Assembly: GCF_035083965.1 (NCBI RefSeq)
Contig: NC_089729.1
Coordinates: 14,682,964 to 14,746,963 of the forward strand
Length of the DNA stretch: 64,000 bases
From: Branchiostoma lanceolatum
Lineage: Eukaryota > Chordata > Leptocardii > Amphioxiformes > Branchiostomatidae
Reading direction: 5' to 3'
Below the pieces are notes generated by a model. The model was not told the origin of the DNA, made no database searches, and saw nothing but the letters and a program-made list of their open reading frames with translations. Each line of letters starts with the position of its first letter. Positions within the stretch are counted from its first letter, which is position 1. Positions 15,418 through 64,000 of the stretch are shown here, in pieces. The position numbers were made by a program, and so were the translations under genes.

Positions 15418-16090
15418 TTGCCTGTTCCAGTTAGACTTGTTAACACGTACCCAGAACCATTGACTTTATTCCGAGGGACTAAAGTTGGCCAACTGACCTC
15501 CATACTGGTGGGAGGAGACACTGAAGTGATGCATAATGTGGCTCAGCTGCCACCGGGTAGAAGCAGTACTAAGCGACGGCCCAAAGTCGCGAGAGTTCTT
15601 AGGCGGAGGGGAATAACCTTTGTCTCATCTGTTCAAGCCAGAGAAGCTCTGGAGGGTATGAAGGATGTTTGTATCATCCGAGAGTCATCCTCACCCTGGG
15701 GAGTGCCCATGGTGCTAGTGAAGAAACCAGACAACAGTAGCAAACACGCACAAGGAGGAACTGACGATGGCCTTCAAGAAGATCAAGGAACACTCGACTA
15801 CATCACACAAAGGACAGAAAGACGTGTGCGACAGGAAGTGTAACGGAGAGGGTTTCTCGGAAGGAGATAGAGTATGGCTGTCAGTACCTGTTGCACTCAG
15901 AGGAGTTAGTAAGGAACTGTACTCTAGGTGGCAGGGCCCATACAGGGTTGTGAAGAAAACCTCACATGTCACATACAGAAGAATCCAGCATAAGGCATCC
16001 AACAGAAGACGAGTGGTCGTGCACTTCAACAGGCTAAAACCATGTACACCACAGGTGGAAGACGGAGGACTGAACGTGTATGTATTTTAA
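15418..16090 (+). pseudogene. Ty3/gypsy-type retroelement pol remnant, internally deleted
   Basis: Two overlapping open frames. The first, 15418-15843, carries a segment typical of the region between protease and reverse transcriptase (VRLVNTYPEPLTLFRGTKVG) and then the first RT motif (IIRESSSPWGVPMVLVKKP). It loses similarity after about 15735. The second, 15767-16090 in another frame, encodes an integrase C-terminal end (FSEGDRVWLSVP, SRWQGPYRVVKK, VVHFNRLKPCTP). Most of RT, all RNase H and the integrase core are therefore missing, and the frame changes at the junction near 15740-15770. Gag and flanking LTRs were not found. This is a dead fragment inserted upstream of the first ependymin-related gene; the assignment rests on motif recognition only. 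Confidence 0.8.
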
Positions 16091-17449: not shown

Positions 17450-20400
17450 ATGTTGACCTTCGTGGCAATCGGTAAGCATGATCTTCTTGTTCTTTCCTCA
17501 AAGAACTGTAACTATGTTGTCTACTACTGGCCGGTCGCTAAGGTAAGGTCCCGTCCACAAAGGGCCGGGGTTATCGGGTTACCGGAGGCCTTCGCGGGCT
17601 CCCGTGCGCCAATGCCTGCCAGCCTGTGAATCTGTTCAACCTGCCGTCAGAGGACACATTGAAACAGTCCCGTCCATTTTTACATAGTTATCACCCTCTC
17701 CTAAACAACAGACTGTCTTCCCCATTCAGCAACCACTTTTTTGCAAGCCCAATGGGGCATTCACCCTCCCCTTAACAACCAATTAGATTGACAGCAGCTA
17801 GCAGCCATTTTGAATGAGAATTTCTGCAGGTACAGTCCCCCTATGCCTCTTTTGTTTGGACAGTGACATCCAAACAAGCAGTGGCCTATTCAAAATGAGG
17901 ATTTCTCCGAGCTCGGCCATTAATTTCATTTTAATAACAGGATCAGAAACAAAATTCTGATACTCATATATATCACTATATTCCACAACAATACTAGAAA
18001 CACCATTGTAAAGATACATGCAGTTGAATAACAGTTCAAATCTGTTACTGTACCTTTTTTGTGTCATCAGTTGAAATCAGTGAAGCACATAAATGCTGTG
18101 CAAAGTAAAAATCGAACTAGTTGGAATTCTGATGTAAAGAACTGAATGCACTTTTTTGGCGGTAATAGGAAGTAGGAACAGACAACTAGTACCAAGAAAC
18201 ATATTTAATTGCTAGATAAACACATGTTCTGATGGTCAAACAATGGCACTGCGTAAAAGCGTTAAAGCTTGAAGAAATACACAGTTTCAAATTAAGAATA
18301 ACGGTTAAAAATAGGCAGAAACAGTTTGAAAGCAGGACAGTTCAAAGTTCATTTTCGAGGGTTTGTGTCGATTGCAAGCCTTTTTAAAACATACTACTCG
18401 TCAATGCCGTAGATTCATGTTGACTTAACCACGTAGAAATATGTATCTAAGTTTCATATTGTTCATATTTGTCTTTGTTTCCAAGCTTTCTTGCTAGGTG
18501 CAACGATCGCAGACCCTGTGGAGGACCCCGGTCCTTGTTGTACACCAAAGCAGTGGTCTGGCACTTTGAGTATTATTTCTGACACAGTAATCGATGGGAA
18601 ACTATGTAAGTTATCTTACAATCCTTCTTGTTTTCTGAGAAAATTGGCATGCATTAAGTAGTCATTTTAGCAATAAGGTGACGTGAATAGTGAAGCAGTA
18701 TTTCTAGAACTCTATTTTTTGTCAATGAGTAATTGGGGAGGGGTGTGGCTGCATGTACGAAATGATTTGACCTACGATAAACGATTTGTCAGCTGTTTTG
18801 GAAGATATGTCTCAAAGGACAACAGACTGAACTACTTTCTCTTGATTTTACAGCGACTACAAACCAGACCATGATGTACTATTATGATTACAACAACAAG
18901 AGAACAGCGACGGTGGGGGAATGGTTCAGAGTTGTGGAAGACTACAACAAGGTTCTTCTCCATTTTGTTACAATTTTGAATCCCGGAGGTGATTGACACT
19001 CGCAAGATACAAATGTGAGGCAAACACATATTACGTCACATGAAAAGATTTAAACAAATGATCTCGAATTTGTGTCAGGGACCACAATGCATCACGACTG
19101 CGCATTCGGAACCGGAAGGTGGCTCAACAATATTTGTTCGTTCGGATAGACTGGCCGCCATCTTGGATCAACATGGCGGCGCCGCGGCGATGACTATCCA
19201 ATCTATTAGTTGCTACACCATGTGTTGATACAGTATTTAACCTTGTCATTTTTTATTCATATAGATGGTGGCATACACCATAGCTGCAGGCACTTGTACC
19301 ACAAGGAAGTTGACGATACCTATATCGAACTGTGTACTAGGTAAGTGAATCAGAAAAGTATCAGAAATTACATCAATTTCTACTCTGAATCATGCAGTAC
19401 ATTAGATAATATTAGTACAGTTGAATAGGAGATGGTTATCATGAAGAAATTGTTTTTATGAGTGAAGTTTGCTATCAGATCATTTTGTATTGGTGTTTGT
19501 GCCAGCTTGGTAAATATATATGCCAACTTTTCGGTTTCTGTATGGCTAGAATGTCTGAATGTATGTCGCACTGCAGCTAGGTGGCGCTGCAGTTGGAAGA
19601 ATGCGGTCCCAAACGTGACTCAGCTTGCACCCCGAACCCTTTTCACGGTTTATGTCGGGTCAAGGAGGTCGTCATGAAACGTGATGAAGAAATGGGTGTG
19701 CGTGTGTGGGGGGGTGGTGATGGTGCAAGATAAGTCACGTTTGGGACCGCATTTTCTTACTGCAGCGACATCTAGCGGCAGTGGGAAGTAAAACCAGTTA
19801 GTGTCGCCTTTGGGGGATAACCGTATGGGGAGGTCGTGATTGAAGACACCTATGGCTAACATCCAGAGTTTACAGAAAATGAAGCATAGAGATATATAGT
19901 CGTTTCTGAAAACTTTAACGTATTACTTTTCACAGCAAAAGCCACTTTCCTTGGCTCCTACCAATATGGCGGCCCGCAGGGATTCAAGGTTAACGAGTAC
20001 TCTGACGAGTTCCCCCCTAACATCAAAAGAAGGAACTCCTTCACCGCTGACGGTTGTATTCCCGTTCGGGAGACCGGGTTTACCACCGGACCAAGTTAGT
20101 AAACATACTACAATTTGGTAACAATATTTCCAGACTCTGATTTACATGCTTCAACAGATGATTATTTTTAATCAATCCCTAGCAACAAATTACTCAAATC
20201 AGTAATGATATGTTTGCTATGATCCTTCAATTATTGGAAATATAGATCTAATTATGATCTTCTATACATTTCAGATGCGACTGCTTACTCTCAGGATTTC
20301 ATCGACATTGTCCCATCGATTGAGGACCCTTCCGTGTTCGATGTATCCAGTCCACCGTGCCAGGTGGACACAGATCTTGATCACGCTGTGGTAAGAACAT

Positions 20401-21038
20401 TCCCTTACTAGATAAAAATGGCTGAACATGAAAACCCCCACAAAGTCTTTCCTTCTTGGTTTTAATACACACAAGTTTCTTTGTTTTTTTTTGAAGAAGC
20501 TAAAAATTATTACAAGTTCTTTGGTGTTGTATGGATGGAGTGCTTGCACGTGACGTCACAGTCGCCATGTTGATTGGTTAAACCTGTAAGAGTCAGACCA
20601 ATGAGGTGCATGTTTATAATGTGCTTGCACGTGACGTCACAGCCGCCATGTTGGTTGGTTATCCTGTAAGGGTCAGACCTGTGAGATGCATGTTTATAAT
20701 GTGCTTGCACGTGACGTCACAGCCGCCATGTTGGTTGGTTAATCCTGTAAGGGTCAGACCTGTGAGATGCATGTTCATAATGTGCTTGCACGTGACGTCA
20801 CAGCCGCCATGTTGGTTGATTAGACCTGGAAGAGTCAGACATATGAAATGCATGTTTATAATGTGTTAACATATGGCATCACAGCCCGAACATTATCAAT
20901 TAAGATGAACAACGTTTAAAATAGTGTTTAAATGTGTTTACTTTTACTTGTTTATCTCTCCATTTTTTTTTTCAGACATTCGCCATGATAGCGAAGGTCG
21001 TAGTACCGTTCGTCCTTTATCTTGCCGGGGCATACTAG
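17450..21038 (+). CDS. Ependymin-related secreted protein, array gene 1
   Basis: Seven exons: 17450-17471, 18486-18605, 18854-18951, 19265-19340, 19936-20094, 20275-20390 and, less surely, 20976-21038. All have GT-AG borders and phases matching genes 2 and 3; total about 217 codons. The product starts with a signal peptide (MLTFVAIAFLLGATIA). It then shows PCCTPKQWSGT, the sequon NQT, a YYYDYNNK block, RVVEDYNK, TCTTRKL, an FLGSYQYGGPQGFKVNEYS block, GCIPV and IEDPSVFDVSSPPC. This is the ependymin/MERP (EPDR) pattern: small extracellular calcium-binding glycoproteins with conserved cysteines. Oddity: the acceptor used for the last exon in genes 2 and 3 is damaged here. The best remaining acceptor (TTTTTTTTTCAG, ending 20975) adds a hydrophobic tail with KVVVPFVLYLAGAY before TAG. 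A poly(A) signal is at 22696. Exons 1-6 are secure; exon 7 is uncertain. Confidence 0.85.
17528..18230. repeat. Extra sequence in intron 1 of gene 1, absent from gene 2
   Basis: Intron 1 is 1014 bp in gene 1 but 375 bp in gene 2. Similarity holds up to GTTGTCTACTA and resumes near CACTGCGTAAAA, with about 700 bp extra here, including a GC-rich patch at 17545-17635. No terminal repeats were found, so insertion in gene 1 and deletion in gene 2 are both possible. Confidence 0.5.
19572..19790. mobile_element. Inverted-repeat element in intron 4 of gene 1
   Basis: The left arm holds CTGCAGCTAGGTGGCGCTGC and then ATGCGGTCCCAAACGTGACT. The right arm is its imperfect reverse complement (AGTCACGTTTGGGACCGCAT). 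Gene 2 keeps only the right arm, near 26922-26980. A further left-arm-like copy (CTAGGTGGCGCTGCAGTAAG) lies at 56927-56970 in the GPCR intron, so the family is dispersed. Confidence 0.75.
20541..20870 (+). repeat. 80-bp minisatellite with CACGTGACGTCA cores in intron 6 of gene 1
   Basis: Four copies start near 20541, 20622, 20702 and 20783, with a decayed fifth at 20863. Each has GCACGTGACGTCACAG followed by CGCCATGTTGGTTGGTTA and a GTCAGACC block. CACGTG (E-box) and TGACGTCA (CRE) overlap in every copy. Gene 2 intron 6 has two copies (27775-27950) and the fossil unit has one (23865-23950). Confidence 0.85.
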
Positions 21039-21266
21039 TCCCGCCAGGATACATCTTTGCTCGTTTGCCCTGATCTGGCTGAAGTGATTCGTGGAGACAC
21101 AATGTATTGTAGAACATAGTTATAGATATAGAGTCACGTAGAAGCCATCAAGGGTATTGCTACCGATGTTTGCACCTAGCTGAATTTCTAGATCCTATAC
21201 AGACGAATATTTGTGCCAGTTTCTTAGAGGACTCAACAACAAACGCTAAAGAATTATTGATGAATA

Positions 21267-22365
21267 ACGGGGGGTGCCCAAATATCGGACGTTTTTTTAC
21301 GCGCTGGAACTCGCGGCGCTCCATTGCTGGTTGCCAGAGAATGGTCATGTTTTAATGAATGAATTTTGAACACATTCATCTAAAGACCATACTTGGACAA
21401 AAAATGTATTCATACTGTTCATGGGCCCTTCATGCTCCGCGTTACATGCGGAAGACGCTGTGAGACATTTTCACGAATGTACCTTCTGATTTAGTGCTAC
21501 GCCAGATAGTGTGCCTAACTTCCTACGCTTTGGTAATTTTGCTCTTTTCGGAAGTTAGTGATGAAGTTAGGGAAATGTAAATTAGGCTTGAAGTCTGCTA
21601 TATTCTAGCTTTCTTTTGACCGGAAAATTTTGACTGTGTGCACTTCTCACGTCATGTGAGAAGGGCTATATCTAGCGCATCCCAGTTCATGTTTCCACGG
21701 GAAATAGGCTACTACGCGGCCCGACGTACGTATTGAATACGGCCCGACTTACGAAATCATTACGAATAAACGACACCGCTGACATCAACAATACTCCGTC
21801 TACTTATTGGGAAATATCTTCGCCATCTCTGTATTCAGTTTCCTTTTCATAGACGGTACCAATCACATGTTAGAGCGTAACAAAACTGTGCGTTGAATCG
21901 TTTCGCCACCATCGCGGCCCCCAAAAATGGCGGGAAAACAACGTCGTCAGACGACAGCAATGTTTACGTTGTTTTTCTTTGGTCGGTTTTCTTCTCAACA
22001 AACACTTAAAGACCCAAATTTTTAGTGTTTTATGAAGTTATTTTTCTTATGTGTATGATAGCTGTGTGACTTATGTATCTGCTTTGCACAGGTCGTATAT
22101 TTAGGTGCCGGGCTGTCTAGCTACGCAGTGACCCTCTACTTAGCGCTACCATCATTATTGTCAAAATACTACTTTTCGACAAAACAAGAAATGAATATGT
22201 ACACATATGTTTTGAATGTAAATGACAATCATGTGCATGAACTTGGGTTATTTACCTTCCTTATCAGCTTAGTTATTGGACACAAACACGGCGTACTTAT
22301 GCAAAATAAGATCAGTAAAAAATCCGTGCGATGTTAGGGCGCGTCGATGTTCGGGCGCCCCCCGT
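21267..22365. mobile_element. 1.1-kb non-autonomous DNA element after gene 1, with empty site at gene 2
   Basis: The ends ACGGGGGGTGCCCAAATATC and its near-complement (GTTCGGGCGCCCCCCGT) form inverted repeats of about 25 bp flanked by TA. The paralogous sequence after gene 2 (about 28335-28345) runs straight from GACGAATA to CATTACAAGTTATC with no insert. The interior has no transposase-like open frame. TA flanks suit the Tc1/mariner type, but short termini and the ambiguous duplication leave this open. Confidence 0.8.
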
Positions 22366-22695
22366 TATACATTAAAAGTTATCAATTGCTGTCTTACAAA
22401 CGATATGTCGAAAAGACAGACTCTGAGGTTCTTGCAATTATGGAAATGCCGTCGTTATATTTACTCCATCTTACCTACATAAGAGACCGCAATATGTAGA
22501 ATACATCAAGGACTTAGTTTCTCCTTTTGAAACTATTACTAACGAAAAATATCGAAATCATTCAACGTTTATTTTCTTTTAAAAAGTAGTCTTCCTTTAC
22601 TTGTGTGTCTTTTATCAAACTCTGTTTCATTTCTCTTAGTCAAACGATATTTAGCTTGCTTTATACCAAGATAACTAGTGATCACGCGTGCACGA

Positions 22696-22701
22696 AATAA
22701 A
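22696..22701 (+). terminator. Polyadenylation signal AATAAA, ependymin-related gene 1
   Basis: Lies in GATCACGCGTGCACGAAATAAA followed by CGGTTCTTTC (pattern split here), and matches the AATAAA of gene 2 at 28595-28600 in the same sequence context. This supports a shared, conserved 3' end. Confidence 0.6.
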
Positions 22702-22869: not shown

Positions 22870-24000
22870 CATATTTGCTTGTATAGTATACACGAGGTGG
22901 CCATGGTTTTTGGACAATGCTGACAAATTGATTGCGAAGGTCGACATGTCATATGGTCTTCGGTAAACATATTAGGCCAAAGAGAATAATTGATGCAATT
23001 ACCAAAAATAACAGTAACTTACTACAATAGTTTTCCAGTTCTTTCATTTAGTCACTGACGAAAGATAGCGGATACTGTATGAAATGTCTGTTTCAAATTT
23101 TATCCAGTTGCATGAGTAACTGTCTTTTGGTGTATCTTATTACCTAGATGTCTAACTTTCATCGACGTAACAGTTACTATAAACGCATTCGAAACAACGA
23201 GGTGATGTTTTTTGGGCACAATATCAGTCGGTCTTACTCATCTGATTATGCGTTAGCTTTCACACTTGTGACGTATTAAAATAAACAAGCAAAATTTCAC
23301 ATATTCTGGACTCTTACAAACTCAAAGGATTACGTTTTTACTGCATCACTTATAAATAAAGTGCATCACTCATACAATCGTTACGCAATATTAAACAAAT
23401 AAAAAAAACACGTCAGATTCAACTAAATGTCTAACCAGCTTGTGAGGGGAGGGGTCAAATTTAACTTAGCTGATATAAACTTGAAGTTTAAATTCTAAAC
23501 GACATTTACAGTCATTATATTCAGTTACAATGACAATATATTCAGCAAAGAATTCCGTGTTTTTTCAAACATAAGATATGGAATATGGTCAGTATCGTAC
23601 GTTTATCTAAGCTCAAGTTACACTGAGAAACACTCTAGCCCATTGAGGTACTAAATATACCCAGTGCCCAAAGGAGACAGATCTAGATAACGTTGCGGTA
23701 AGGACATCACTTATTGGAACATTTGGGTGAATAAAAAGTCCCACATATAAGTCAGCAATGTCACCCTATTCTTGCTCTTTAAAAGTAGGATATTCTCTGT
23801 TTTTCTTGTTTGAATACGTTCGATATTGTTACATCTTCTTCCAACAAGTAGTATGGATGTTTCCACGTGACGTAACGGCAGCCATGTTGGTTAGTTAAGC
23901 CTAGAAGAGTCAGGCCTGTGAGACGTATGTTAATTACGTGTCTGCACGTGACTGTAATTACATGTACACATTCGATTTACCTGGCAACTGCAAAGTTTAA
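22870..24000 (+). pseudogene. Fossil ependymin-related unit: upstream region fused to a piece of exon 6
   Basis: From 22870 to about 23653 the sequence follows the upstream region of gene 3 (29170-29808), ending in GAAACACTCTAGCCC and GAGGTACT. It then jumps to the end of exon 6 (about 23655-23697: CCCAAAGGAGACAGATCTAG, donor GCG|GTAAGG) and on into intron 6 with one CACGTGACGT minisatellite copy. Exons 1-5 are absent. The exon 6 piece lacks 7 bases relative to gene 3, breaking the frame and deleting the PPC cysteine. It marks a fourth copy that has been gutted. Confidence 0.75.
23040..23170. mobile_element. Short dispersed repeat inserted in the fossil unit
   Basis: Contains AAATTTTATCCAGTTGCATG, AGTAACT and TTATTACCTAGATGTCTAAC. 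The same motif order occurs twice at 41815-42015. It is flanked by an approximate AACAGTTACT duplication, and the gene 3 upstream region (near 29305) has that sequence once with no insert. The pattern suits a SINE or LINE tail. Confidence 0.6.
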
Positions 24001-25269: not shown

Positions 25270-28145
25270 ATGCTGACCTTCGTGGCTATCGGTAAGCATC
25301 TCCTTGTTCTTTCTTTAAGGAATCAGACTGTAACCATGTTGTCTACTATAGACATCGTATTTCAAAATCACCACTACTACTACTGCCAATCAGTCTGTCT
25401 AGTAGTAAAGACCAGGACATTGTACTGCGTAAAAACGTAAGAAATTACACAGTTTCAAGTTAAGAAAACAGTTCGAAGTATTCAGAAAATGGTTTGAAAG
25501 TACAGGACAGCTCAATGTTCATTTTCGAGGGTGTGTGCCGACTGCATGTCGTCTGCGTCTTTGTGATCATATTATTACTCGTATATGTTACAGATTCATG
25601 TTGACCTAACCACGTAGAAATATGTACCTTAGCTTCTTATAATTTATGTATTCCTTTGTTTCCAAGCTTTCTTGCTAGGTGCAACGATCGCAGCCCCTGT
25701 GGAGGACCCCAACACCAGCCCTTGCTGTACACCGAAGCAGTGGTCTGGAACCATGGGTTCTATGGTTGACTCAGTAAGCGATGGGAAACTATGTAAGATA
25801 TCTTACATTCATTCCTGTGTTTCTGAAAGTTGCCAGACGAAACTGCCATGCATTTCTTGACTGGGATATTAACCCATAGACGTGAATAGATAATCGATAT
25901 TTCTCGTACTCTATTTTTGTCCATAGGTAATTGGCGTGGGGTGGGTGAATGGGTGCATGGTGGATACGTACTAAATGTTTCGACCTACGATAAACGTTAT
26001 GTCAGCTCTTTTGAAAGATATTTAACAAAGGGTAACGAGACTGAAATACACTCTCTTGATCTTACAGCGACGACAAACCAGACCATGATGTTCTATTATG
26101 ATTACAACAACAAGAAAACAGCAACGGTGGGGAAAGGGTTCAGAGTCGTGGGAGACTACAACAAGGTTTGCTTCTCCATTTTGTTACAATTCTGAACTCT
26201 AGTTACCCTGGAGGTGATTGATACTCACAGTATATGTTCTTTATTAGAGAGAAGTTTATTGCAAGTTCATGCCCGTGGGCTAATTGCAAATACATGATAA
26301 AAACATAGGAAAAAACATACATGCGTCAGTAAACTGTGTCTGACTTTGCTGTAACAATAGGTTACTGGTACTATATACATTTGTTGGCTATATCTAAATT
26401 AGCTGGGTTTGACTTCTTTTTTGGAATCAGTGGAAGACGAAAAGTCCCACTTTTTCTAGTATTTGTGGGTTCTGTGATTTCAAGAGAAAAGTATACGAAT
26501 GTGAGGCAAACACATATTACGTCACATGACAAGATTTAAACAAATAATCTCGAACTGTCAGTAGGGTGTTGAGAGTTTTTGGTGAGGCACCACAATGCAT
26601 CACGACTTCAAATGCGCACTGTGAGGTCGCTTATGCTGTTCGTTCTGAAGGACTGGCCGCCATTTTGGATCTGCTACATCAACATGGCGATGACTATTCA
26701 ATCTAATAGTTGTGACGCCATGTGTTAATACGATATTTATCGATGATCATAACCTTGTCTTTTTTTATTCATATAGATGGTGGCATATAACATAGCATCA
26801 GGCACGTGTACCACAAGCAAGTTGACGGAACCGATATTGAACTGTGTACCAAGTAAGTGAAAAAAGAAAAGTATCAGAGGATGGTGGGTGGTGGTGGGGG
26901 TTGGGAGTCGATACAAGACGAGTCACGTTTGGGACCGTATCTTTCTTATTTCAGCGAAATCTAGCTGCAGTGGGAAGTAAAACCAGTCAGCATTGCCCTA
27001 ATGAAGGTAACCGTCGACAGGTTGTGTTTGAAGAAACCTTTGGCTAACACCCACTGTTCACGGGTATTGGAGCAAAGAGATTGCTAAAAACTAACAACAT
27101 ATTGCATTCCACAGCGAAAGCAATTTTCCTTGGCTCCTACCAATATGGCGGCCCGCAGGGAGTGAAGGTGAACGAGTACTCTGTTGATGCGTTCGCTCCT
27201 AACATCAAAGGAAGGATTTCCTACACCGCTGACGGCTGTATTCCCGTCCGGGAGACCGTGGTTATCACAGGAGCAAGTCAGTAAACATACTACAATTTGG
27301 TAACAATATTTCGAGACTCTGATTTACATGCTTCTACTGATGTTTGTTTCTAATCAATCTCTAGTAACAAATTACCCAAATCATAATGACATATTTGCCA
27401 TGGCTAATTCTTAATTGTATTTTCTACTGACCTTGTTTCTTTTACACCATTTAGATGCGTCTGCTTACTCTCTTGATTTCATCGACATCGCCCTATCGAT
27501 TAAGGACCCTTCCATTTTCGATGTACCCAGTCCGCCGTGTCCAAAGGACACAGATCTGGACAACGTTGTGGTAAGAACACTCGCTTACTAGATACATATG
27601 GTTGAACAAATCATCATTTCAGGGTGTTATCCCCCCTTTGGAGGAAGCCCTTCCTTGTCAGACTCCTGGCTTTCCTCTGTCTAGCCGTTCTTGTTTTCAA
27701 TACACAAGTTTATTTTTTATTTTTTAAGAAGCTAAATATTGTTACACGTTTATCTGTCGATATGGTTGTATGGGGTGTTTGTAAGTAACGTCACAGCCGC
27801 CATGTTGGTTGGTTAATCCCTAAGAGTTAGACCAATGAGATGCATGTTTATAATGTGTTTGCACATGACGTCACAGCCACCATGTTGGTTGGTTAAACCA
27901 GGAAGAGTCAGACCAATGAGATGCATGTTTATAATGTGTTAACACATGATATCACAGCTCGAACATTATCAAGATGAACGACGTTTGAACATCTAAATGT
28001 GTTTTTTACTAGTTTATCTCGTTGTGCACTCATTCTTGTAATAGATTCACCATGGGAGTGAATGTCGCTTTACCAATTGCCCTTTATCTTATTTTTCCAG
28101 GACGTGCCAATGCCGCGAGGATCCACCTTTGCTCGTTTGCCCTGA
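25270..28145 (+). CDS. Ependymin-related secreted protein, array gene 2
   Basis: Seven exons: 25270-25291, 25667-25792, 26068-26165, 26777-26852, 27115-27276, 27455-27570 and 28101-28145. Together they total 645 nt (214 aa), with every border GT-AG. The product has a signal peptide (LTFVAIAFLLGATIA), a PCCTPKQWSGT block, sequons NTS and NQT, DYNNKKTATVG, TCTTSKL, FLGSYQYGGPQGVKVNEY, GCIPVRETV, IKDPSIFDVPSPPC and the end DVPMPRGSTFARLP. Length, cysteine spacing and block order fit the secreted ependymin-related (EPDR/MERP) family. The tail shared with gene 3 supports the exon 7 choice. It is closer to gene 1 in both exons and introns than to gene 3. Poly(A) signal at 28595. Family function (extracellular, calcium-sensitive, adhesion or regeneration related) is known only broadly; the specific role is unknown. 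Confidence 0.88.
27775..27950 (+). repeat. Two-copy CRE minisatellite in intron 6 of gene 2
   Basis: Two copies, and a decayed third, of the 80-bp unit seen in gene 1 intron 6. Each has AACGTCACAG or TGACGTCACAG followed by the CCATGTTGGTTGGTTAA block. Confidence 0.75.
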
Positions 28146-28600: not shown

Positions 28601-30028
28601 CGTTTCTTTCCCAGCTATCTTGAATTGTATGTATTTTGTAACCATTCATTCCTAGCGTAACAGTATTACGGTTGTAGCTAAGCCGGCCGAGTCGGCTGGA
28701 AATAGTTGAAATTGGCCAAATAGCTGCAAACTGTACTGCTATAGCGGACTAATTCCACTAGCCTGTTATCCGTCTATTTGGACCATTACACTCTTTTCAG
28801 CTGCCTCTTGAGCCCGGTAGCGGCTAGCTAAGTCTTGCAAAACTACATATAAACGAAGATGTATGGGAAGTGTTATTTGTGCTGTACCATGAACTAGTCC
28901 CTATTAGACTGAGTGACAGAGAAAGATCTAAAGCAGAGGATTCCTTTTTCTGTCGAATTCAGAAGGCTAGTATTCTATCCTAAACCACTTGTTGCCAAAG
29001 CTTATATCTTTCGAGGTTATTGATCTTAGGAATTCATTCAGCCTGACATGTGAAAAATGAAACGATCGTAACATACCCATTGCAAATGCAAATAGGTTTC
29101 AACTGTAAAGAACTGCCGTCAGTAAATGTGTATGCTAATGTTTAAATACGTGTGACTTTACATAATTTATATTTGATTGTATATCATACACGAGATAGTT
29201 TATGGACTATGCTGAAATCTTGACTGCCATGGTCAACGTGTCATGGTCGTCGGCAAACATATCACCCAAAGATAATAATTTTTCATGTAATTACTAAAAA
29301 GGAACAGTTACTATAAAGTCTTTCAAAACAACGAGGTTATGTTTTACTGGTATAATATCAGTCGGTCTTACTCATCTGACTATGCCTTTGATATACTTGT
29401 GACGTATCTAAACAAACAAAAACGTCACATCCAAGAAGATCGTAGACTCTTACAAACTTAGAAGATTTCTATTTTACTGCCATGTGATCATCAGCAGATC
29501 TTAGCCATTAGTGATTCTGCATCACTTATCATCAGGTGGCATGGCTTATACGCTCGTTACGCAATAAAACAAGCAAACACGTCATATCCAACTAAAGGTT
29601 TTACAAGCTTGTAAGGCCGAGTGGTTGACCGGTCAGCTGATGTCCCCTTGGCGTTTGCATTTCACACGAAAGAATCATTATATTCAATCACAATTGAATT
29701 GTGTTAAGAGTAGAATATTGTGTTCTAAAATGAAAAATTATGGTCAGTATCGTATCGTTTACTTAAACTCAAGTAACCCTGAGAAACACTCTAGCCCTGT
29801 GAGGTACTGTTTACCTTGTGTCCTCTCAGTGACCTCAAGGTGACTATTACCTCACAAGGCAAGGTTCAAACAAACAAGGCAAAGTTCAAACAAACAACCT
29901 CGTGCAGTTCCGCCCACCCCCTGTCAGACAGCTGTATTAAAAGACTGCGTAGTTGTTTAAAAAAACAAAACAATTCAGCCTTAAATCTGTTCTATTTCTT
30001 TCCGCGAACCCTAGAAACCTTCCCCAAG

Positions 30029-32502
30029 ATGTTGACCTTCGTGGCAATCGGTAAGAATGATTTGATTTTTCTTTCATGAAGAATATAACTATGTTGCCTC
30101 AATGATATCCTTCGACCCTACAAAGTACAAATATGTATCGTAGCCTTATAAGGTTTATGTGCTTCTTTGTTTCCAAGCTCTATTGCTAGGGGCAACGATC
30201 GCAGACCCGGTTGAAGACTCCAACCCCAGCCCTTGCTGTGTACCAAAGCAGTGGTCTGGGACGATGGGTATTGTCAGTGGCTCAGTAAGCGGTGGAAAAC
30301 CATGTAAGACATGTTACATTCTTTTTTTGGCGACACCACAGGGGCGAGCTTAATGGTATAGCAGTGTGTGCAGTGGTCTGCAAGAAGTCTAGGAATTGTA
30401 CAGGAATTTTGTTAACAGGAATTTCTGTCCAAAGGAAGTATTATTAGGAATTGTATGGTAGAAAGTGGGTCATGCTGGCTCACGGGAGCATTTGTCCTAG
30501 AAAACTGGGACAGTTGCCCATAAGTGTCCACCAGATGTAATAAGTTCAGTTGCATATACAGACAGACTTTGCACATTTGATCACTTGGATGTTTTGTTTA
30601 ACTTTATGCTGCCTGAAGTAGTCATTCATAACAACAACATGGCGACCTGAGCAGAATCATCTTTTAATTTGGGTGGGGGTATTGATGAGGCCGATTCCTT
30701 TTGACAAGTTTCTTGCTCTCTCGGAAGTAAATTGGGATATTTAGGTAAACATCTAGGAAAGGACGACAGATTTAAAAGAGCTATTTTTGAATCCTGCAGC
30801 GGCAAACAACCAGACCATCATGGAGTTTTATGATTATGACAAGATGAAAGTGGCACTGGTGGGGGACGGCTTCAGGATTGTTGAAGACTACAACAAGGTC
30901 GGTCTGTACATGTGTGATACGTTGTTTGCGAATGTTCTCCCTTACAAACCTGATCAGCTGACGTGGCGTGGCAAAATGGTTTTGTGAAGTTCATACATTC
31001 TAATGCTAACACAAAAAGCGAAAAGCAAAATAGTCATTAAGATAATTTGTACATATATATTTGTTTATGATTCTATTTTTCATTCCTGATTCTGCACGTT
31101 TGGAAACATGATCCAAGGATAGTTTTACAATATTATTACATCAAGAACATCTTTTTTTCAATTCTTGTTCGTATAGGGAGTGTCGTATTCAATAGTTTCA
31201 AACCAGTGCACCACGAGCAAGTTGACCAATTCTTTGTTCAACTGCATCCCTGGTAAGTGAAACGGAACGTCATTAGAAGTGAATGTGATGATTATCTCGA
31301 AATCACGTAGTATAACTTGAACCATACGTTGCAGATGACATGCTATATGCAGTTCTAAAAATGATTATCGTAAAAGATACTCTTTTTTTGTAACTTAACC
31401 TTAATGATGAACTCGAAATGAAATTTTTAAGTATTACTTCATATATAATCTGACCATATGTTTATGTAAATGTTTTTTTAGATTAGCCCTCAAAACTGAC
31501 ACTTTTCACCCCATGTAATAGCTAATGCCACATTTCTGGGATCGTACCAATACGGTGGCCCAAAGGGACTGAAAGTAAACGACTACTCAATCGACTCTTT
31601 TGCCCCTGGTCTCATCGGGAGGATTTCTTTCACCGCTGACAGCTGCCTTCCGGTTCTGGAGACCGTAGTCAATGGCGGAAATGGTGAGTAAGAAATATCT
31701 TTGTATCCTGTCTTATTTTCTACAAGGAGCAATACAGTAATAAAGCCCTTTAACTATTGACTAAAATAAGATCGTTCACACTTACTCTGGTCATTGTTAT
31801 GCAAATCGAGACAATAGTCGAGACGAGTTGATATGTTACCCACAATTGCTATCGGTGCGCATGCGTACTTGGAAGTATGAATGACCTTGATTATAAGAAC
31901 TAAGAATATATCTGTAACATTGTATAACAATTCAAACAGTATTTTATTATAAGCTGTCGTTACCATGATCAGAGTATTAAGATTGTTACTTTGCTGTTTT
32001 CTACTTATTTATGACGCTTCCCTCGATCGTTCGATTGTTTTAATTTTTCTTGACCGTTCTAAACAGAAGTACCACAATCAATAATGACAAAGTCGATATG
32101 GTGTCAAATGAAGTAATTCTAATATCCTATTTATACTCAATAGATCCGTACATTGATGCCATTGGATTCGTCAACATTGTCACGTCGATTAAGGACCCTT
32201 CCGTGTTCGATGTACCCAGTCCACCGTGCCCAAAGGACACAGATCTAGACAATGTTGTGGTAAGAACATCATTTTCTGGATAAATTTGATTGAAAAATAC
32301 CACATATATAAGTCAACAATGTTGCTTGTTGTTATCTTTATTTTCCCTAACACAGTGTCATAGCTTTATCCTTTATCTCATTGAGCACACATGTTCTAAG
32401 AGATTTATCATGCAATGGATGTTGTTTTACCAATTGCTCCTTATTTCATTTTACCAGGACATACCGATGAGGCAAAGATCCATCTTTGTTCGTTTGCCCT
32501 GA
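30029..32502 (+). CDS. Ependymin-related secreted protein, array gene 3
   Basis: Seven exons: 30029-30050, 30178-30303, 30800-30897, 31177-31252, 31522-31683, 32144-32259 and 32458-32502. Exon sizes are identical to gene 2 throughout (645 nt, 214 aa). Signal peptide LTFVAIALLLGATIA; then PCCVPKQWSGTMG, sequon NQT, FYDYDKMKVALVG, RIVEDYNK, QCTTSKL, ANATFLGSYQYGGPKGLK (a further sequon), SCLPVLETV, IKDPSVFDVPSPPC and the end DIPMRQRSIFVRLP. Coding identity to genes 1 and 2 is clear, but introns 2-5 are mostly unrelated to theirs, so this is the more distant sister. The promoter lacks the TGAGTCA site; its place reads CTGTCAGACAGC. Intron 5 holds a MITE-like element (31770-31890). Family role as for gene 2; specific function unknown. 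Confidence 0.88.
31770..31890. mobile_element. MITE-like copy in intron 5 of gene 3
   Basis: Related to the element at 2310-2512: it shares TTATGCAAATCGAGACAATA and a GCATGCGTACTTGGAAGTAT end, with a weaker left end near TTCACACTTACTC. Shorter than the other copy. Confidence 0.6.
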
Positions 32503-47338: not shown

Positions 47339-58978
<11,640 letters not shown>

Positions 58979-62897: not shown

Positions 62898-63854
62898 TTA
62901 TACCGTTCGGAAAGTAGAGGGAAATGCGACCATGGGCCTGTCTCTACCGAAGACGCTGTCGTTTCCGGCGGAGTAATACACAGCACCTCGGCCCAAGTTA
63001 AGATCTCTTAGCAAAATTGCATCATCTATCGGTGCAGGCAGGATACGTTGTTTCCTGCAATCTCTGCAGAACAGCATATCCACTGCGTGTTTTCTGAACT
63101 TGGCACTGAATGAGAGGTATATGAAGGGGTTAATGCAGCTGTTGGCATAGCCGAGGCAGATACTGACAAAGTAAGCCACGAGGAAAGCGTAGGAAGGACC
63201 CGAGCTCATCTGCATATTGACCAGCGCGATGACGTAATAGGGGAGCCAACACACCAAGAAAACAATGACCACCACCAGAACCATCTTAGCCACTTTCTTT
63301 GTTTTCTTTTCCGCGTTTGACGCCGCTGGGTTCACTACCTGTTTGAGCTTACGGAACACGTTGGCATAGCAAAAGGTGATGATGACAATAGGGATGGCGA
63401 AAGCCAGGATGAACTGGTAGATGGTGAACCAGTAGATGTCTTTAGCTTCGGGGAAACTGATCTCACAAACACGCAATCCGTTTGGGTAGGTGATCTGTCG
63501 AGCGAAAGCTAGGACGGGAGAGATAGAAGCAAGGGAGGCAACCCAAACGCCAATGTTGGTGATGATGGCTACCTTACGGGTGCGAAAGGATATGGAACGA
63601 AAGGGATGGCTGATGGCAAGGTAGCGGTCAATGCTCATGGTGGTCAGTATGTAGACACTAGCGAACTGGTTGTTGCTGTCTAAGGTGTAGACGATCTTGC
63701 ACATCGCCGAGCCGAAGGTCCACTCGTCCGAGATGAACTGTTGGGCGAAGAACGGGATCCCGATGAGGAAGAGCTCGTCAGCCAGGGCGAGGTTAAAGAT
63801 GAAGATGTCGGAGGGGGTGCGGAGCTTGGTGTGCCGAATCATCACGTACATCAC
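62898..63854 (-). CDS. MCH-receptor-like class A GPCR, last coding exon (5' part outside)
   Basis: One exon of 957 nt (318 codons) from within TM1 to a TAA. Read on -, it follows a good acceptor (ACAATTTTCAG at 63855-63865), so the GTG at its edge is an exon border, not a start. The N-terminus and first half of TM1 lie beyond the window. Landmarks by fragment residue: LALAD 22-26, Cys52 and Cys130 (disulphide), Asp59 in TM3, DRY 76-78, CWLP 202-205, NPFIY 242-246 and a basic third loop (NAEKKTKKVAK). It is closely similar to the + receptor at 47339-58978 (both have IFIFNLALADELF and WVAS), including MCHR-like WFTIYQFILAFAIP. Unlike that gene, it has no intron after TM1. Expected to be a plasma-membrane peptide receptor; the ligand could be of MCH, somatostatin or allatostatin-C type. 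Confidence 0.88.
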   Translation of the reverse strand: MMYVMIRHTKLRTPSDIFIFNLALADELFLIGIPFFAQQFISDEWTFGSAMCKIVYTLDSNNQFASVYILTTMSIDRYLAISHPFRSISFRTRKVAIITNIGVWVASLASISPVLAFARQITYPNGLRVCEISFPEAKDIYWFTIYQFILAFAIPIVIITFCYANVFRKLKQVVNPAASNAEKKTKKVAKMVLVVVIVFLVCWLPYYVIALVNMQMSSGPSYAFLVAYFVSICLGYANSCINPFIYLSFSAKFRKHAVDMLFCRDCRKQRILPAPIDDAILLRDLNLGRGAVYYSAGNDSVFGRDRPMVAFPSTFRTV

Positions 63855-64000
63855 CTGAAAATTGTCACAGGACGTTACGGCGATTGTTATCGAGAATATT
63901 TGACGAAAACATAATTATGAATCCTAATTCTTTAAAAGCTCAGGAAAAAAACGCGAAGACATTCTGAATAATGACACTTAATGTATAGCCTATAGGAGCA

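Follow-up and report, generated by a model that had tools for sequence, protein, structure and literature searches.

The window, by which we mean the whole 64,000-nucleotide stretch of Branchiostoma lanceolatum DNA that was analyzed, holds three tandem ependymin-related (EPDR) genes on the + strand, starting at 17450 (gene 1), 25270 (gene 2), and 30029 (gene 3). Do the three still end in the same way and, if gene 1 does not, how did its end change and what would the change do to the protein? We consider it probable that gene 1 is a tandem EPDR duplicate whose exons 1 to 6 are intact and whose last acceptor has moved 53 bases upstream.

The gene models were rebuilt from conserved exon borders. 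Each gene has six exons (22, 120-126, 98, 76, 159-162, and 116 bases for exons 1 to 6, with matching phases), followed by a short last exon. All three products score above the Pfam PF00811 cut-off of 32.3 bits (58.7, 62.6, and 56.1 bits for genes 1, 2, and 3). The match of gene 1 (8.5e-16) ends at residue 182 of a predicted 217, the family median being 213. Gene 2 matched four distinct sequences of solved ependymin-related proteins (best 7.5e-11), and its residues 25-188 match human EPDR1 (PDB 6E7O; phmmer, 7.7e-11). A script counted six cysteines in gene 2, including an adjacent pair, and our reading of the alignment places genes 1 and 3 on the same six columns. The N-terminal MLTFVAIAFLLGATIA, with a 13-residue hydropathy of 2.5, is a candidate signal peptide. 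By the sequence features tested, gene 1 is an ordinary member of the EPDR family. Synonymous divergence (dS) is 0.27 between genes 1 and 2, and 0.73 and 0.79 from these to gene 3. Thus, genes 1 and 2 are the closest pair, and whatever genes 2 and 3 have in common is likely to be the ancestral state. The features that bear on the end of gene 1 are as follows.

17450..17471, + strand: gene 1 exon 1, start of the putative signal peptide (MLTFVAI); matches exon 1 of gene 2 (25270) and gene 3 (30029)
18486..18605, + strand: gene 1 exon 2, remainder of the putative signal peptide and CC motif
18854..18951, + strand: gene 1 exon 3
19265..19340, + strand: gene 1 exon 4
19936..20094, + strand: gene 1 exon 5
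20275..20390, + strand: gene 1 exon 6, with the last conserved cysteine, a phase 0 end (DLDHAV), and donor GTAAGA
20497..20553, + strand: rival last exon of gene 1, acceptor TTTTTTTTTGAAG, tail KLKIITSSLVLYGWSACT and stop (from acceptor scores)
20540..20865, + strand: 81-base repeat, four copies, within gene 1 intron 6
20937..20955, + strand: branch-point-like YTNAY motifs; relative to the predicted new gene 1 acceptor, their A stands at -36, -30, and -22
20963..20975, + strand: T10 tract and CAG of the predicted new acceptor in gene 1 (from acceptor scores)
20976..21038, + strand: gene 1 last exon, predicted coding part, TFAMIAKVVVPFVLYLAGAY and stop
21025..21028, + strand: ancestral acceptor of gene 1, dead, CCGG versus CCAG in genes 2 and 3, with a 5-base deletion before it
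21029..21073, + strand: former last exon of gene 1, open frame GILVPPGYIFARLP and stop, now predicted 3' UTR
28101..28145, + strand: gene 2 last coding exon, DVPMPRGSTFARLP and stop
32458..32502, + strand: gene 3 last coding exon, DIPMRQRSIFVRLP and stop

The final acceptor of gene 2 reads TTATTTTTCCAG directly followed by GAC (TTTTTCCAG), opening an exon from 28101 and a product that ends in DVPMPRGSTFARLP. That of gene 3 reads TTCATTTTACCAG directly followed by GAC (TTTTACCAG), with an exon from 32458 and a product ending in DIPMRQRSIFVRLP. At the homologous site, gene 1 reads CTTGCCGGGGCATAC / CTTGCCGGGGC, where AG has become GG and the tract is 5 bases shorter. Both sisters carry TTTAC at -29, a motif missing from the old site of gene 1, which keeps only TTTAT at -10; these are branch-point-like by the motif YTNAY. 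Loss of the old acceptor in gene 1 is well supported by the sequence, given the AG to GG change, the shortened tract, the lost -29 motif, and the concentration of change at this place.

In gene 1, CATTTTTTTTTTCAG lies upstream of the old site, its last base being 20975; gene 2 reads TCATTCTTGTAATAG there. TTTAC, TTTAC, and TTTAT lie at -36, -30, and -22 of this putative new acceptor. The exon that would open at 20976 continues the frame of exon 6 (donor after 20390) and runs for 20 sense codons plus TAG (20976-21038; stop at 21036-21038). In the alignment, its first part (20976-21028) falls on the ends of the sister introns, and the frame of the new tail is also open across those ends (TMGVNVALPIALYLIFPG in gene 2, YHAMDVVLPIAPYFILPG in gene 3). 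Thus, a hydrophobic tail was probably latent before gene 1 changed.

A preliminary description of this locus had stated that genes 2 and 3 splice to a last exon opening with GAC while gene 1 is about 5 bases shorter there and lacks the AG, which is what the alignment displays. The upstream acceptor and in-phase exon that it proposed are also present. Its statement that the new exon equals the polypyrimidine tract of the sisters is too strong, as 38 of the 53 positions aligned there are identical between genes 1 and 2, and a "swapped" last exon is not quite the right picture. Because the old exon lies inside the new one and the ancestral frame is still open, the change is better described as an acceptor shift of 53 bases upstream, with a change of frame, than as an exon replacement.

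To choose among acceptors, we scanned the 38 AGs in 20431-21129 with a generic score and with a matrix built from 15 acceptors of these genes. Position 20976 ranks first of 38 on the generic score (7.0) and second on the matrix (7.0). The next best generic score belongs to 20497 (4.5; matrix, 6.7), and the top of the matrix ranking is 20500 (8.7; generic, -0.3). The generic score puts the assumed true sites of the sisters first (6.3 among 32 AGs in gene 2, 4.6 among 13 in gene 3). The matrix, which rests on only 15 sites, puts these assumed sites second in both sisters, with 27729 (10.3) above 28101 (8.9) and 32364 (5.3) above 32458 (5.1). The in-phase sites 21039 and 21048 (SRQDTSLLVCPDLAEVIRGDTMYCRT and shorter) are weak acceptors: 21048 scores -1.4 (generic) and -0.4 (matrix), and 21039 falls outside the five best on both scores. 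From these ranks, 20976 is likely to be the acceptor that gene 1 uses, with 20497 and 20500 (KLKIITSSLVLYGWSACT or one residue shorter) as real rivals.

We find that change specific to gene 1 is concentrated at this boundary. Across 20955-21028, 18 of 72 alignment columns differ in gene 1 only and 2 in gene 2 only, compared with 15 and 15 of 169 columns in the downstream former exon and UTR (Fisher test, P = 0.005) and with 38 and 29 differences in the coding exons (P = 0.007), values that are optimistic because the interval was picked post hoc from the alignment. Under six alignment settings, the boundary gave 16-18 gene-1-only versus 2-3 gene-2-only differences in 72-73 columns (P = 0.002-0.006, optimistic for the same reason), and the downstream part gave 11-12 versus 15-16 of 155. 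Genes 1 and 2 have an identity of 0.89 immediately upstream, falling to 0.52 in 20955-20975 and rising again to 0.72 in 20976-21028 and to 0.80 past it. For genes 2 and 3 the value is 0.50 immediately upstream, 0.76 and 0.79 in the same two intervals, and then 0.80 and 0.69. This profile suggests that the sisters keep the stretch as an acceptor region would be kept, while gene 1 has let it go. The crowding of change would be expected equally from relaxed constraint alone, on an acceptor that no longer works, and from the gain of a new exon.

The acceptor loss could be a step of decay, with gene 1 on its way to a pseudogene and its transcripts read through, mis-spliced at 21039 or 21048, or ended early. 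Read-through from 20391 would give only VRTFPY and a stop (read by eye). The branch to gene 1 carries 27 amino-acid and 11 silent changes (27/38), which is indistinguishable from neutral expectation (P = 0.25), versus 14 and 15 on the gene 2 branch (14/29; P = 0.0008 for constraint); the contrast between the branches has P = 0.08. As its amino-acid changes are not below the neutral expectation, gene 1 may be decaying. Against this, gene 1 has no stop, keeps six cysteines, and has canonical sequence at its other 11 splice sites. In a neutral simulation of 40 changes that begins from gene 2 and models no indels, the start, the absence of a stop, the cysteines, and the 22 splice bases all survived in 2.4% of 20000 runs (34% for the absence of a stop by itself, and 11% once the cysteines and start are required too). 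The coding indels, of 6 and 3 bases, are both multiples of three and preserve the frame, versus 6 of 23 short noncoding ones, a tally that may be off by one through an alignment artefact near 19295. An apparent 5-base coding indel at 19295 is that artefact: exon 4 has 76 bases in both genes, and the protein alignment is gapless there. Further, gene 1 gained a strong in-phase acceptor, and the two sites proposed for mis-splicing score poorly. Decay is unlikely on this balance, and we read the sequence of gene 1 as that of a working gene under relaxed or weak constraint.

If gene 1 used 20497 (or 20500) instead of 20976, its intron would measure 106 (109) bases and its product would end in KLKIITSSLVLYGWSACT (or the same tail less one residue). 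The site at 20497 has a T-rich tract, an in-phase frame, and a single YTNAY motif at -32, and both positions do well on the matrix. Gene 2 has a similar site, 27729, likewise in phase; there, however, it coexists with an ordinary last exon. Moreover, 20497 follows AAG rather than CAG, the generic scores of both positions are below that of 20976, and their use would leave the T10CAG near the old boundary unexplained. We regard this choice of acceptor as quite unlikely.

With 20976 as the predicted acceptor, the question becomes what the new tail does. The preliminary description had suggested that the product could be membrane- or GPI-anchored. We compared the tail with 2862 control tails of 12-40 residues, drawn from 6943 AGs on both strands, including AGs within genes and gene 1's own. 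The rough GPI rule is not a published predictor. On this rule the tail of gene 1 passes narrowly: D-H-A is a candidate omega site, 10 residues would serve as spacer, and a run of 13 uncharged residues has a mean hydropathy of 2.02, an arrangement that matches the usual GPI layout. Both sister tails fail, and the N-terminus of gene 1 is hydrophobic and signal-peptide-like. But 50 of the 2862 controls also pass at hydropathy of at least 2.0. Plain hydropathy at or above that of gene 1 is reached by 53 controls over the best 13 residues and by 102 over the last 14; among the 21 controls that follow a pyrimidine tract, 2 or 3 reach it.

The best 19-residue transmembrane sum of the tail is +2.6 kcal/mol, which is unfavorable (on a position-independent scale), and K and P lie inside the run. 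The hydrophobic frame was, besides, probably already latent in the sister introns. A 2007 family study (PMC1805737) describes ependymins, in the passages available, as mainly hydrophilic and without transmembrane domains, and titles and abstract openings of the literature matches joining ependymin with GPI-anchored include no anchored EPDR. Of the suggested anchoring, then, the narrow fit to a rough GPI rule stands, and the transmembrane energy and the frequency of passing controls speak against it; from the sequence, membrane or GPI anchoring is weakly supported. It is very unlikely that an upstream-slid acceptor, by turning a pyrimidine tract hydrophobic, made a secreted lipid-binding EPDR either membrane-anchored through a GPI signal or one whose tail plugs its own groove. 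That the new tail is specifically a GPI-attachment signal (or tail anchor) holding the gene 1 EPDR at the membrane is more improbable still.

Other origins of the pattern were rejected. There is no need to invoke import of the exon from another part of the window, as the segment 20930-21035 aligns with the sister intron ends and its other matches up to E = 1 are two short ones, of 17 bases (E = 0.075, in the corresponding intron of gene 2) and 12 bases (E = 0.30). An assembly error appears unlikely because the boundary holds 16-18 scattered gene-1-specific changes plus a deletion, not a single altered base. A second, cysteine-rich frame over the sister intron ends was set aside: by eye, the places where genes 2 and 3 differ follow no codon pattern.

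In gene 1 the old acceptor is dead, a strong in-phase T10CAG stands a short way upstream, and this boundary is where the gene has changed most. The spliceosome would probably join 20390 to 20976. The 53 added bases would shift the frame, so that the protein ends in TFAMIAKVVVPFVLYLAGAY and not in the polar ARLP ending, and the old exon would still be carried in the mRNA, out of frame, as 3' UTR. The changed part begins at residue 198, past both the end of the Pfam match (182) and the last conserved cysteine. The product would most likely still be a secreted six-cysteine EPDR with a changed tail that, taking human EPDR1 as a guide, would sit close to the rim of the lipid groove. That tail may alter contact with the groove or membrane, or, as gene 1 appears to be under weak constraint, be nearly neutral.

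If confirmed, gene 1 would be a case of a duplicate gene gaining a new protein end that can be read step by step: because the three copies adjoin, one can set side by side the acceptor that was lost, the one that was gained, and the hydrophobic frame that was open beforehand. It may also point to a general bias, in which upstream acceptor shifts tend to add hydrophobic residues because the sequence beside acceptors is pyrimidine-rich. As the changed part would sit at the groove rim of a solved relative, its effect is biochemically testable. Judged by its sequence, the event would be exonization, a known mechanism, acting here on the end of an intron in one of the copies, and gene 1 is a clean but fairly ordinary example of duplicates drifting apart. 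Titles and abstract openings of the matches listed for ependymin with amphioxus, Branchiostoma, or GPI anchoring, for duplicate exonization, and for acceptor tracts and exonized tails contain no account of the gene 1 case, although absence is not thereby proven, and the passages seen of PMC6280359 and PMC1805737 do not report it.

The three genes resemble cysteine profile 2 of McDougall et al. 2018 (PMC6280359), which in the passages available is defined by six cysteines with an adjacent pair: they share PF00811, six cysteines with CC, a length of about 214 amino acids, and tandem copies. The same passages describe big EPDR family expansions in several animals, including the amphioxus Branchiostoma belcheri. 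Gene 1 differs from its two sisters in its predicted hydrophobic tail past the last conserved cysteine, where the sister tails are polar.

In human EPDR1, according to the parts of PMC6363788 available, a C-terminal loop contributes to the rim of the lipid groove, the protein binds acidic-lipid membranes at acid pH, and the C113/C210 pairing is conserved in several EPDR clades. That loop differs in having an extra vertebrate-specific cysteine, C222. Those parts describe no hydrophobic terminal run of the kind predicted for gene 1, whose tail could, by analogy, touch lipid or the groove.

Exonization and pseudoexonization in duplicates form a class that a passage of PMC8998645 attributes to Xu et al. 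2012. As in that class, sequence that is intron in the sisters is predicted to become exon in one copy. Unlike it, as described in that passage, the gene 1 case lies at the last exon and consists of a 53-base acceptor shift with a change of frame.

A fourth copy of the ependymin-related (EPDR) gene appears to have left a remnant between genes 1 and 2 of the tandem array, as judged from sequence matches within the window:

23406-23941, remnant of a fourth EPDR gene copy

Its first part (23406-23652) resembles sequence upstream of gene 3 (29575-29808), and this stretch gives way at 23664 to a 3' portion of exon 6 (the last exon before the short terminal exon), which matches with E 8.65e-7 and still has its donor and the beginning of intron 6 behind it. 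The arrangement looks as if an internal deletion in the fourth copy had taken out the exons preceding the 3' part of exon 6. Farther along the remnant, 23858-23941 holds a unit related to an 81-base tandem repeat of intron 6, the intron that follows this exon:

20540-20865, gene 1, 4 copies of the repeat
27788-27958, gene 2, 2 copies of the repeat

The gene 1 consensus of this repeat contains CACGTGACGTCAC, which includes an E-box-like core and a CRE-like core.

Left unspliced, intron 6 leads to a stop after 6-7 codons in all three genes:

20391-20411, gene 1, unspliced end VRTFPY (read by eye)
27571-27591, gene 2, unspliced end VRTLAY
32260-32283, gene 3, unspliced end VRTSFSG

Judging by these reading frames, the read-through stop is a possible alternative protein end common to the three copies.

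The 3' region of gene 1 carries an insert whose ends are 16-base terminal inverted repeats, ATAACGGGGGGTGCCC, matching at 15/16 positions:

21264-22368, inserted element of ~1.1 kb

The AATAAA at 21765 lies inside this element and is its own; the gene 1 counterpart of the gene 2 AATAAA (28595) is probably that at 22696.

Domains were scanned in 10 long reading frames of the window, where two rhodopsin-type 7TM receptor frames and a retroelement remnant are found:

62901-63914, minus strand, 338-codon receptor frame (7tm_1, 1.1e-65)
57107-57502, plus strand, second receptor reading frame, partial (4.1e-19)
15722-16087, upstream of gene 1, remnant of a retroelement, recognised by an integrase C-terminal domain (1.8e-12)
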